The position numbers were made by a program, and so were the translations under genes. Below are positions 31,335 to 36,873 of a stretch of DNA of 64,000 nucleotides, in pieces (the stretch's first letter is position 1; the number at the start of each line of letters is the position of its first letter). The stretch spans positions 1 through 64,000 of the forward strand of contig JAENWW010000009.1 of NCBI GenBank assembly GCA_016649875.1, given 5' to 3'. The stretch is from Coriobacteriia bacterium. Its GTDB lineage: Bacteria > Actinomycetota > Coriobacteriia > WRKU01 > JAENWW01. The notes below the pieces were generated by a model that saw only the letters and a list, made by a program, of their open reading frames with translations, made no database searches and had not been told where the DNA came from.

Positions 31335-31411
31335 TGCGGGGTGGAGCAGTCTGGTAGCTCGTCGGGCTCATAACCCGAAGGTCATAGGTTCAAATCCTGT
31401 CCCCGCGACCA
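31335..31411 (+). tRNA. Initiator tRNA-fMet (CAT)
   Basis: The 77-nt cloverleaf has anticodon CAT in the loop CTCATAA, the initiator-specific three G:C pairs in the anticodon stem (GGG/CCC), A11 in the D stem, the T-loop GGTTCAAATCC and an encoded CCA. Position 1 (T) faces G72, a non-Watson-Crick end pair as expected for initiators. Its 3' half, from the anticodon loop onward, is the left attachment site of the integrated element, so the 3' half here may be element-derived. Confidence 0.96.
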
Positions 31412-31467
31412 ACAAAAGTGCAGGTGGGAAGCTTAATCGCTTCCCACCTTTTTTGTTTGATTATTCA
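31367..31467. repeat. Left attachment site (101-bp direct repeat, attL)
   Basis: The 101 bp from the tRNA anticodon loop through the CCA end, the tRNA terminator and the following TTTGATTATTCA are identical to 36773-36873, with no mismatch found. The sequences diverge immediately outside in both directions. This is the footprint of site-specific integration into the initiator tRNA gene. Confidence 0.95.
31422..31454 (+). terminator. tRNA terminator (left copy)
   Basis: AGGTGGGAAGC and GCTTCCCACCT form a perfect 11-bp stem with a 6-nt loop followed by six Ts. It terminates the tRNA-fMet transcript. A second identical copy lies at 36828-36860 as part of attR. Confidence 0.93.
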
Positions 31468-31490
31468 TTTGTAAGCAATTTGTAAGCGAA
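31468..31490. repeat. Tandem TTTGTAAGC repeat, left (possible integrase arm sites)
   Basis: TTTGTAAGCA followed by ATTTGTAAGC gives two GTAAGC cores 11 bp apart, immediately inside attL. The same arrangement with one mismatch occurs at 36632-36654 near the right end, in the same orientation. Paired short repeats inside the att core are typical of arm-type binding sites of tyrosine integrases. Confidence 0.55.
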
Positions 31491-31558
31491 GCACTTTTGT
31501 ATTCTTTCCCACCTATACAATTTTCCCCTTACTGCCAGCAAATGCCGTCCACCTCACC

Positions 31559-31587
31559 TATAATAATTAATTATTCAATTAATTATT
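31559..31587 (+). promoter_or_regulatory. -10 box and AT-rich inverted repeat before the PIN gene
   Basis: A TATAAT (31559-31564) overlaps the inverted repeat AATAATTAA-N8-TTAATTATT (31562-31587), which ends at the ribosome-binding site of the PIN gene. No good -35 was seen. The repeat could be an operator or a leader hairpin. Confidence 0.4.
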
Positions 31588-31600
31588 GGAGAGACAAAAA

Positions 31601-32779
31601 ATGAAGGATGCTTTGCCAGAATTCTATGATTATCCGCAGCAGCTCATTGATGATCTTTGGGATAATGCCCTTGTTGTCTTTGACACTAATGTTCTTCTAG
31701 ACCTCTATGTTACAGCCACAGATATGACAAAAATGTGGTACAAGCTATTTGAGGCATTAAAAAAAGATGACAGGCTATGGATGCCCTACCAGGTGGCTCT
31801 TGAATACCAAAAAAATCGCGGCAGAATTATTAATAATCGCGAAGCCTCTCTCTCGAATATCGAAAATACTATCAAAAAGGCATATAAATCTATCAGAATG
31901 GCCGCCGACAAAGCGCCCTTTCTCGACATGAATCTAGACAGTTGCTCTGCTGAATATACGAGTTTATTAGATGGTATAAAGGAGAAAGAAAGATACTGGA
32001 AGAAACCAGGTAAAAAAATTACGTACGAAAATGATAGGATCCGCGATGCGCTTGACGCCATATTCTCCGCAGAACTTATTGGGGAAAAATATTCTAAGGC
32101 CCAGCTATCTGAGATATATGATGAGGGCGCCGACAGGTACCCTCGTTTCATCCCACCAGGCTTTGAAGACTCTTCTAAAAAAATTAGCCCGAATAACTGC
32201 GACTTTGACAGCCCCAGTCTTTACGGAGATTTCGTTATCTGGAAAGAACTATTGCGATACGGACGTGAGAATAACAGGTCAATTATATTTGTGAGTAATG
32301 ACCGAAAGGACGACTGGGTATGGGCAGAATCAGGGAAAAAAGAAAGCTTACAGAGTACCCATCCATACCTTAGAATGGAATTTCACACAGAGACTAAGCA
32401 ACATTTATTCGCCTGCTCTTCAACGGAATGTCTACGCAATTTCGAAAATCGATACGCCATCAAGCCAACCGAAGAGTATTTTGAAAAGACTGAGACACTA
32501 CTTGAGCGCACTTCCGAAGAAAAACGTCTTCTTAATCTCGCACTGTTAGATAAATTTACGATAAGCCAAAAGCAACTTATGGATGAATTTTCCAAGCCGA
32601 GTCTTGACACTCTCATGTCAGAAATGAGAACTGACCAACAATGTTTAAGCAGTTTTATGGCCCAAACCAGACCCGCACAAAACCTCCAAGATTTCCTTAA
32701 CAAATTTAATGGCACTGCTATATCTTCTCAAAAAGTAAAAGATACAACTTTCTCTAATGGTAAAAATTTGGGACACTAG
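31601..32779 (+). CDS. PIN-like domain protein (PIN_8 type), element cargo
   Basis: The 392-residue protein begins with a PIN-like nuclease domain. The first acidic motif 'VVFDTNVLLDLY' lies at about residues 25-36, a Glu in 'PYQVALEYQKNR' near 65, and the C-terminal part 'IIFVSNDRKDDWVW' near 232, the PIN_8 signature. These supply the acidic metal-binding residues of a RNase-like site. The final 120 residues are helical and charged. Start at 31601 because GGAGAG precedes it; an upstream TTG lies before that site. GC content is much lower than in the neighbours. Such proteins are often mobile-element cargo with proposed defence or toxin roles; the function here is unproven. Confidence 0.72.
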   Translation: MKDALPEFYDYPQQLIDDLWDNALVVFDTNVLLDLYVTATDMTKMWYKLFEALKKDDRLWMPYQVALEYQKNRGRIINNREASLSNIENTIKKAYKSIRMAADKAPFLDMNLDSCSAEYTSLLDGIKEKERYWKKPGKKITYENDRIRDALDAIFSAELIGEKYSKAQLSEIYDEGADRYPRFIPPGFEDSSKKISPNNCDFDSPSLYGDFVIWKELLRYGRENNRSIIFVSNDRKDDWVWAESGKKESLQSTHPYLRMEFHTETKQHLFACSSTECLRNFENRYAIKPTEEYFEKTETLLERTSEEKRLLNLALLDKFTISQKQLMDEFSKPSLDTLMSEMRTDQQCLSSFMAQTRPAQNLQDFLNKFNGTAISSQKVKDTTFSNGKNLGH

Positions 32780-35599: not shown

Positions 35600-35872
35600 T
35601 TATTCATTCCCAAATTCTTGGAAACCTGAAATTTGAACTTCGAATGGCTCCGGTTCATGAATCTTTATAGTAATTGGCATAATTTTTTCTACTTTTGAAA
35701 AGTTTTCCACCGAAATTCCTACTGGATTTTTTGTTTCGAGGTCATAATAAACTGTCAATCCAACATTAACTTCAACTGCATCTGTACAACTTGATTCTCC
35801 AAGGCCGATATATAAGACATCGGCACCTTTATCATATGCCGTGTGGCTCTTATCTGCTTTTAAGATTTTCAT
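35600..35872 (-). CDS. DUF2283-family protein
   Basis: The 90-residue protein has the DUF2283 pattern: 'SHTAYDKGADVLYIGLG' near residue 10, followed by 'VGLTVYYDLETKNPVGISVENFSK'. Members are small beta-rich proteins often encoded beside putative toxins of the DUF4258 type. The start is 35872; it overlaps the stop of the upstream gene's frame closely (5 bp), indicating an operon. It is convergent with rep (11 bp apart). Confidence 0.75.
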   Translation of the reverse strand: MKILKADKSHTAYDKGADVLYIGLGESSCTDAVEVNVGLTVYYDLETKNPVGISVENFSKVEKIMPITIKIHEPEPFEVQISGFQEFGNE

Positions 35873-35876
35873 TTGC

Positions 35877-36242
35877 TCATGCTCCAGCCTCGCGGTACTC
35901 AATGCTATCATATTTCGATAACTTCGACCCACGCATCCATGAAACAACTATTCCCGGATTCTGTGTATGATCAACAACAACTCGTCTTATTGGAGGCCTT
36001 CCGAGCATAGGTTTATCAATTTTGTAATAAATCTTTCTATTTGGATATTCTTCAACTTTCGCAGTTACATGAATTTGGCTCGGATGCGTTATGCACTCCT
36101 CAGTCTCCGCTATGCTCAACCCGGAAGCGTCCATATGGGCAAAACGCTTCGCTTCTACGGTAGAATTCAACAATATTGCATCTCGTCCAAGTGGGTCTGT
36201 GGCACTAAATATTATTTCGTCTTTATCAGTGTTTCCTTCCAT
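35877..36242 (-). CDS. Small protein of unknown function (possible toxin-like fold)
   Basis: The 121-residue protein is not confidently recognised. It shows 'DEIIFSATDPLGRDAILLNS' and a later 'YPNRKIYYKID' plus 'RRVVVDHTQNPGIVVSWMRG', an arrangement of strands like that in phage-type barrel or DUF4258-like proteins normally paired with DUF2283. It is only 4 bp after the DUF3467-like gene and 4 bp before the DUF2283 gene. A toxin-antitoxin role is inference from this pairing. Confidence 0.6.
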   Translation of the reverse strand: MEGNTDKDEIIFSATDPLGRDAILLNSTVEAKRFAHMDASGLSIAETEECITHPSQIHVTAKVEEYPNRKIYYKIDKPMLGRPPIRRVVVDHTQNPGIVVSWMRGSKLSKYDSIEYREAGA

Positions 36243-36246
36243 AAGG

Positions 36247-36537
36247 CTACTCCTGCTTTTCAGCATCTGAAAGTTTATGATTTAAAATTGCCTCTTTGAG
36301 TTTTGGAAAAAAACTATTCGCCACAATTACTCGCGATGTCAACCTTCCGATTGGCTCGTTCCCCATAGCTTGGCTCATAATATCCAGTGACACAAAATCA
36401 ATTGTCGTCTCATAAGGGCCGCTCGCTATCATAGTATAGTTTGCGTATTCACCCTTTTGGACTGACCCCTCGGCAATAATGGTAAGCTGTTTCTGTTCTA
36501 TTGACTGTTCATTTTTCCCAACACTTTGCTCTGACAT
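36247..36537 (-). CDS. DUF3467-like protein
   Basis: The 96-residue protein has 'GEYANYTMIASGPYETTIDFVSLD' then 'RLTSRVIVANSFFPKLKEAILNH', matching the DUF3467 layout (ANF-type strand, DF strand, then an R-V-V strand before an amphipathic helix). The role is unknown. It is the first gene of a three-gene minus-strand operon inside the element, whose promoter would lie in 36538-36772. Confidence 0.6.
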   Translation of the reverse strand: MSEQSVGKNEQSIEQKQLTIIAEGSVQKGEYANYTMIASGPYETTIDFVSLDIMSQAMGNEPIGRLTSRVIVANSFFPKLKEAILNHKLSDAEKQE

Positions 36538-36772
36538 AATGCCCTCCCTAAATAAACGATATTACGCGTATTATAACCCAAATTTTACAGAAAATGTAAT
36601 CCAAGCTTCTGTTCAAATGCCACTTTAAATTTTTGTAAGCATTTTGTAAGCGAAATTAGCCAAAACTACCTATAACGGGCGATACCAAGAAGGACTAAAG
36701 TATCATTAAAACCCCAGCTCAAAGGCAACAATATGGACTGAAATGGAACTAGCAAGAAACTACTCGAACCAA
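36538..36772. other. Right-end non-coding region of the element
   Basis: This 235-bp AT-rich gap holds the right tandem TTTGTAAGC repeat (36632-36654) and the probable promoter of the three-gene operon on the minus strand. No open reading frame of useful length was seen. It is a reasonable place for attP arm sites or a replication origin, but no origin hairpin was recognised. Confidence 0.5.
36632..36654. repeat. Tandem TTTGTAAGC repeat, right (possible integrase arm sites)
   Basis: TTTGTAAGCATTTTGTAAGCGAA differs at one base from the left copy at 31468-31490 and is in the same orientation, 118 bp before attR. An ACCTATA motif also follows each copy at similar distance. Confidence 0.55.
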
Positions 36773-36873
36773 CTCATAACCCGAAGGTCATAGGTTCAAA
36801 TCCTGTCCCCGCGACCAACAAAAGTGCAGGTGGGAAGCTTAATCGCTTCCCACCTTTTTTGTTTGATTATTCA
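36773..36873. repeat. Right attachment site (101-bp direct repeat, attR)
   Basis: This is the exact copy of 31367-31467: the 3' half of tRNA-fMet from the anticodon loop, CCA, the tRNA terminator and a short tail. It has no 5' tRNA half, so it is not a functional tRNA. It marks the right boundary of the integrated element, about 5.4 kb from attL. Confidence 0.95.

Follow-up and report, generated by a model that had tools for sequence, protein, structure and literature searches.

An integrated element with an exchangeable HUH Rep in the initiator tRNA gene of a Coriobacteriia bacterium, probably a small rolling-circle plasmid

Integrated plasmids that have viral-like HUH Rep proteins but lack structural genes have been known since 2019, and an unnamed cluster of them belongs mostly to Actinobacteria (PMC6668415). 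Integrative and mobilizable elements (IMEs) of streptococci carry Rep-like relaxases in compact relaxase–xis–int modules, and 35 of 118 such elements lack TcpA (PMC5357655). The Rep proteins of rolling-circle plasmids can also act as relaxases for ICEBs1 (PMC5714925). The element analysed here occupies the initiator tRNA gene in a stretch of 64,000 nucleotides (the window) from a Coriobacteriia bacterium (assembly GCA_016649875.1, contig JAENWW010000009.1). It is probably an integrative rolling-circle element, namely a small plasmid that has integrated in a tRNA gene and hitchhikes in the manner of an IME. It and its relatives make up a compact, modular family of integrative elements from a bacterial class that has been little studied; in this family the int–xre/xis switch stays constant while the HUH Rep is swapped, down to a core-only form of 3.4 kb.

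The element is bounded by two copies of a direct repeat, the attachment sites attL and attR, which are 100% identical over 101 bp and form the sole exact direct repeat of at least 24 nt in the window. Its length from repeat start to repeat start is 5,406 bp. From the first base of the 7-nt anticodon loop (CTCATAA) of tRNA-fMet, the repeat extends past the tRNA 3' end and the hairpin terminator into the bases behind the terminator. Because it covers the tRNA from the anticodon loop to the 3' end, the left copy restores the tRNA gene. The anticodon stem, as read from the sequence, has three consecutive G-C pairs (GGG/CCC), which identifies the tRNA-Met(CAT) as the initiator. Since the identity of the two copies includes the terminator and the bases that follow it, the attP probably came from a near-identical tRNA locus of the same or a very close species. 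As in islands of the Islander type, an intact tRNA gene lies at one end and a displaced tRNA fragment at the other, with an integrase between them; in Islander terms the element is of crossover class A (anticodon) with a 3' fragment (PMC4383910). Tandem 11-bp repeats, which occur at 0.22 per kb across the whole window, sit just inside both ends, where arm-type integrase sites are expected. The GC content is 43.5% inside the element and 53.1% in the rest of the window.

The genes follow the order tRNA-fMet, PIN_8 (+), tyrosine integrase (-), Xre (-), Xis-like HTH_17 (+), HUH Rep (+), DUF2283 (-), a 120-amino-acid (aa) open reading frame (ORF) (-), DUF3467 (-) and attR (Table 1), and xis and rep share 11 overlapping bases. 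A sigma-70 promoter scan gave matches that do not rise above those of shuffled sequences. The Rep carries the HUH motif HWH at residues 197-199 and the two-tyrosine motif YASKY at 252-256; H197, H199, Y252, K255 and Y256 are invariant in an alignment of seven Reps. The element thus pairs an HUH Rep bearing catalytic tyrosines with the absence of structural genes, as in integrated HUH replicons, and it joins an integrase to a putative Rep-like relaxase with no complete conjugation system. Among the element proteins there is no family match to capsid or other structural, packaging, terminase, canonical relaxase or coupling proteins, none to the primases or helicases of phage-inducible islands, and none to the FtsK/SpoIIIE-type Tra proteins of actinomycete elements; a Zot-type morphogenesis gene is found neither in the element nor in the host genome. 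An earlier, sequence-only reading of this locus had described a perfect 101-bp repeat around an element of about 5.4 kb in the initiator tRNA gene, an integrase–repressor pair facing an excisionase and HUH rep, PIN-domain cargo with a three-gene operon, and no visible packaging, mobilisation-relaxase or structural gene. The repeat identity, the length and the GGG/CCC stem bear this description out, as do matches to PF00589, HTH_3, HTH_17 and PF23343 in that layout, a PF18476 match for the PIN protein, an operon of DUF2283 (borderline), a family-less ORF and DUF3467, and the lack of any match to the missing functions, coupling protein included.

Sister elements were found by searching several hundred genomes of the class, several of them draft assemblies. 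A genome of another family (G117, 86% complete) holds a 6.4-kb element in tRNA-fMet with the same gene order and strands, whose Int, Xre and Xis are 73%, 29% and 45% identical to those of the window. Its 45-bp repeat starts at the same base, and TTTGTAAGC arms lie at both of its ends, as in the window. A search for the same core next to other tRNA-fMet genes had been proposed as a check; the core recurs there in this genome, with homologous elements in other genomes of the class. A 3,435-bp element in tRNA-Val(CAC) of G275 (L126) consists only of int, xre, xis and rep; its Int is 64% identical to that of the window and its arm motifs are near-identical. More distant relatives, with Int identities of 35-37%, lie in tRNA-Arg(CCT) of G083 (5,273 bp), G049 (5,479 bp) and G131, where the contig stops short of the far att so that one end is seen. 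In the tRNA-Arg elements the displaced fragment is the 5' half of the tRNA, ending at the anticodon loop, and the polarity is therefore reversed relative to the fMet and Val elements; the arms are also different (ACGGTAGCAAT). All sister elements have arm repeats of 11-bp period near their ends and a duplicated tRNA part bounded by the anticodon loop. The integrase tree places the fMet/Val clade (99/99 support) apart from the Arg clade, and the int–xre/xis–rep core is common to elements in different families of the class. Behind the G117 element, a third tRNA-fMet core (L112 10968-12384) encloses a single NTP_transf_8 gene (PF12281, 4e-56), giving a 1.4-kb cargo-only unit between att sites.

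The Rep does not follow the integrase. The window Rep and the G131 Rep belong to the same type (A) and are 47% identical, and the G117 and G083 Reps form a second type (B) with 44% identity. The window and G117 integrases are 73% identical, but their Reps give no BLAST alignment, yet both types match PF23343. The G275 element has a nuclease-plus-P-loop Rep with a sub-threshold Viral_Rep match, and G049 has a fourth HUH protein, read by eye. Because the integrases group fMet/Val apart from Arg while the Rep types cross these clades, the Rep is, as judged from these alignments, a module swapped between Int clades among unrelated HUH types. The constant presence of some HUH initiator points to a role in rolling-circle replication or transfer nicking. 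No close homologue of the window Rep was found in genome contigs, in IMG/VR (one- or two-sequence queries) or among INPHARED phages, and a plasmid search gave a single weak match. A search with the seven-Rep alignment reached inoviruses and a contig with a Rep and a serine recombinase. The predicted fold of the Rep (predicted local distance difference test, pLDDT, 58) gave parvovirus Rep nuclease domains as best Foldseek matches, none of them significant (E 0.04). Other mini-elements of the phylum (L036, L037, L038, L040, L021, L084) carry a large serine recombinase together with a related HUH Rep; that of L036 adjoins a tRNA-Ser cluster, and L084 contains two tandem Rep-recombinase units. Apparent integrated inoviruses with a Zot-like protein, a pIII-like protein and a PF23343 Rep were seen in several genomes of one family of the class, f6 (L103-L107), with the gene order clearest in L104 and L105.

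Table 1 Features of the integrated element and its tRNA gene (positions in the 64,000-nucleotide window)
Feature	Position	Strand	Evidence or remark
Initiator tRNA-Met(CAT) gene, intact	31335..31411	+	ARAGORN, Rfam; 5' half is host DNA, 3' half inside attL repeat
attL, 101-bp direct repeat, anticodon loop to tRNA 3' end to hairpin terminator	31367..31467	+	
tRNA terminator hairpin within attL repeat	31422..31449	+	second copy 36828-36855
Left arm-type repeats TTTGTAAGCAATTTGTAAGC, 11-bp period	31467..31490	+	same motif in sisters L112 and L126
Cargo slot 2: predicted RNase of 392 aa with a PIN_8 domain	31601..32779	+	PF18476 2.2e-49; phrog_9788 7.5e-52
Tyrosine integrase, 361 aa	32754..33839	-	PF00589 1e-26; homologues 73% and 64% identical
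Xre-family repressor, 159 aa	33842..34321	-	HTH_3 8e-13; adjoins int in relatives too
Divergent xre-xis control region with operator-like inverted repeats GTTACCAA/TTGGTAAC; 19-nt arms 34348-34366 / 34381-34399	34322..34432	.	function inferred
Excisionase-like HTH_17 protein, 62 aa	34433..34621	+	PF12728 7e-9; TIGR01764 1.7e-6, just below its cut-off
HUH replication initiator, 325 aa	34611..35588	+	PF23343 6e-10, above cut-off; phrog_3419 1e-22; motifs HWH, YASKY
Cargo slot 1: DUF2283 protein, 90 aa	35600..35872	-	PF10049, borderline, 22.7 bits vs cut-off 23
Cargo slot 1: 120-aa ORF (ORF B) without family	35877..36239	-	no plasmid homologue
Cargo slot 1: DUF3467 protein, 96 aa	36247..36537	-	PF11950 4.5e-7
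Right end: arm repeats TTTGTAAGCATTTTGTAAGC (36631-36654) and conserved region to attR	36631..36772	.	aligns with C12 relic and L112
attR, second 101-bp repeat copy	36773..36873	+	

The streptococcal IMEs with Rep-like relaxases (Rel_PHA00330, Rel_PF02407; PMC5357655) resemble the element in their tyrosine integrase, small xis, HUH protein of phage or plasmid kind and compact module, in their site specificity, in the lack of TcpA from some of them and in equally varied Rep families. They differ in that here Xre is divergent from xis–rep, no TcpA is seen in the Int lineage and the targets are the anticodon loops of tRNA genes. Integrated rolling-circle plasmids (pCRESS and unnamed HUH clusters; PMC6668415) are likewise small site-specific elements with an HUH Rep and no structural genes. 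However, the window Rep is without a helicase domain, and only the tRNA-Val sister (L126) has a nuclease-plus-P-loop Rep. Actinomycete integrative and conjugative elements (AICEs) usually use tRNA sites. Those such as pSAM2 (PMC3218068) are likewise integrated and carry a rolling-circle Rep along with int and xis, but the element has no transfer protein of the FtsK/TraB type and its Rep is not RepSA. What is new in the family is the fixed switch, the exchangeable HUH Rep, the anticodon-loop targeting in both polarities and the defence-type cargo. One clade retains the 3' half of the tRNA and the other the 5' half, with the anticodon loop as the boundary in each case, and islands with a 5' fragment are rare in Islander (159 vs 3,760; PMC4383910). 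The suggestion of a new class made by the sequence-only reading is nevertheless too strong, as integrated rolling-circle plasmids, streptococcal IMEs with Rep-like relaxases, AICEs and phage-inducible chromosomal minimalist islands (PICMIs) precede it.

As an integrated rolling-circle plasmid, the element would work as follows. With the 11-bp tandem arm sites near each end as guides, the tyrosine integrase would recombine at the 7-nt anticodon loop of tRNA-fMet. The element would bring its own tRNA 3' half and terminator, so that the host would retain a working initiator tRNA. The Xre repressor would hold the divergent xis–rep operon off; upon relief of repression, the Xis-like protein would switch Int to excision, and the two-tyrosine HUH Rep would nick the circle and copy it by rolling-circle replication. 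A helper would be needed to carry the element into another cell. Going by precedent (PMC5357655, PMC5714925), the likeliest route, with about an even chance of being the right one, is that the Rep serves as relaxase for a co-resident conjugative element. The att sites, arm repeats, core, family, Rep exchange, relics and element-free comparable locus are read directly from the sequence, and from these we infer excision, repression, replication and transfer. Several points weigh against this mechanism. The activity of the element is predicted from its sequence, and no circle or excised site has been seen. Close relatives occur in just a handful of the several hundred genomes searched. The element has no coupling protein, and a search of the host genome for Zot and FtsK-type genes turned up no resident helper (VirD4-type genes and tailed prophages were not searched); one full-length FtsK-type match (778-aa frame) and one below the cut-off lie in the host genome, neither in the window. 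The loci allow direct tests of how a four-gene element free of transfer genes spreads across bacterial families.

A different helper would be required if the element were a satellite of filamentous, inovirus-type phages, with Rep-made single-stranded DNA circles exported by helper coat and Zot proteins as in RS1/CTXphi. Satellites of single-stranded DNA phages exist, and those of the RS1 type resemble the element in their Xre repressor, in their lack of coat genes and perhaps in their inovirus-kind Rep (PMC11389934). Inoviruses that carry coat, pIII-like and Zot genes are the nearest viral relatives of the window Rep, Reps of the PF23343 family are also encoded by inoviruses integrated in other families of the same class, the Xre protein has a weak RstR-family match, and the element is of inovirus genome size. 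However, the Rep is only 26-37% identical to inovirus Reps, in a family that is also present in plasmid-like and IME-like elements, searches of the host genome and of its order gave no Zot, and neither coat gene nor packaging signal was identified. The sisters use other HUH Reps, one of them even of CRESS type, so that no common packaging origin is implied. Unlike RS1, the element has its own tyrosine integrase and Xis, a tRNA target and no helper. Such a satellite is thus unlikely.

Packaging by a tailed helper phage, as in phage-inducible chromosomal islands (PICIs) or PICMIs, has an equally small probability. The integrase–repressor pair facing xis–rep is the order of the PICI left module, defence-type cargo is common in the element family, and PICMIs are equally small and without capsid genes (PMC10803314). 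PICMI and PICI satellites also share with the element the combination of int, an AlpA-like HTH_17 protein and a replication gene. In contrast, the Rep here is an HUH nuclease and not a primase, the target is a tRNA gene and not fis, no helper phage is known, and no primase, helicase, terminase, capsid-morphogenesis or packaging gene is found among the element proteins. Only layout and size speak for the tailed-phage route.

The name satellite, which the sequence-only reading had applied, is unproven, as nothing shows that the element depends on a phage. No packaging, capsid-interference or helper-linked gene was seen, and the host has neither Zot nor a second FtsK-type protein above the cut-off. 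Filamentous phages share this Rep family with Rep-recombinase mini-elements and with IME-like elements that have an FtsK-type coupling protein. That the whole family might be satellites of single-stranded DNA phages, in which a fixed integration and switch module borrows HUH Reps, travels in phage particles and brings antiviral cargo to the host, is a rather improbable extension of the same idea. Least probable is that the element has decayed from a larger mobilizable one that formerly had a relaxase and a coupling protein. In favour of this, relaxase-bearing elements, one with a VirD4-like protein, lie in tRNA-fMet of same-order genomes (G003, G005) and decayed relatives are scattered in the host genome. 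Against it, all four genes of the core are intact, the att repeats match perfectly, the gene set recurs in the sisters and there is a core-only version of 3.4 kb. In addition, the G003 element and an FtsK-bearing element in tRNA-fMet of G252 have integrases of another clade. A phage or conjugation module fused to the element in close relatives, named beforehand as a finding that would count against it, is absent from the members of the same Int lineage.

The rep–attR and attL–int intervals are exchangeable cargo, often of defence type. The genes in the rep–attR slot face rep: the window has DUF2283–ORF B–DUF3467, G117 a methylase-nuclease, G131 HicB-like genes and G049 an HSDR_N protein. The window PIN_8 protein is a predicted RNase. 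PIN_8 as a known defence gene was rejected, with no PADLOC match, no paper and no solved relative found. A DUF4258-like toxin partner of DUF2283, which we presumed ORF B to be, was not confirmed; ORF B has no plasmid homologue, and its fold predicted without an alignment is uninformative (pLDDT 35). The host genome also contains decayed relatives with tRNA-Glu 3' ends as att cores and different cargo in the rep–attR slot. Relics on contig C12 (~31710-37200; L016 11282-16773; G000:C12) comprise att cores, arm repeats and int and rep fragments, together with AIPR/AbiU (5e-31), RelA/SpoT PDC-S33 (6e-110) and AbiEi (4e-42) genes that are predicted to act in defence; ARAGORN detects no intact tRNA-Glu gene in the 20 kb around this array. 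The defence-type genes of the family (AIPR/AbiU, RelA/SpoT, methylase-nuclease, restriction) suggest that it is a vehicle for antiviral functions. On contig C11, a rep fragment and a DUF5674 pair lie behind tRNA-Glu(CTC). This cassette of DUF5674 and a protein of ~110 aa keeps its order in the host tRNA-Glu relic (L017 15127-15797) and at L109 4318-5074, where it adjoins an IME-like element of G298, and it is a candidate toxin-antitoxin or defence pair. In the tRNA-Glu relic, a TnpB-like gene of the IS200/IS605 type has inserted into the rep fragment where the contig ends (L017 16196-17401).

The tRNA-fMet site varies among genomes. A comparison with an element-free tRNA-fMet, which had been proposed as a check, is provided by G004, of the same order and a different family, where the LivK–NlpC–tRNA-fMet order is kept and a 23-bp tRNA-like scar alone is present. 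This locus is orthologous and is not the exact pre-integration allele. In G003 and G005, of the same order, tRNA-fMet holds larger, different elements that start at the same anticodon base and have their own 11-bp arm repeats. Because these genomes hold other elements there, the tRNA-fMet site is, on this comparison, an integration hotspot. The tRNA-fMet element of G252, a genome of the same class, has another integrase and carries a PF23343 Rep next to an FtsK-like protein (sub-cutoff match), which speaks for transfer by conjugation. The two relaxase-bearing tRNA-fMet elements of same-order genomes (L070 2236-13009 and L071 1829-16183) carry cargo that, read by eye from translations, is apparently restriction-modification, TIR or AbiE-like.

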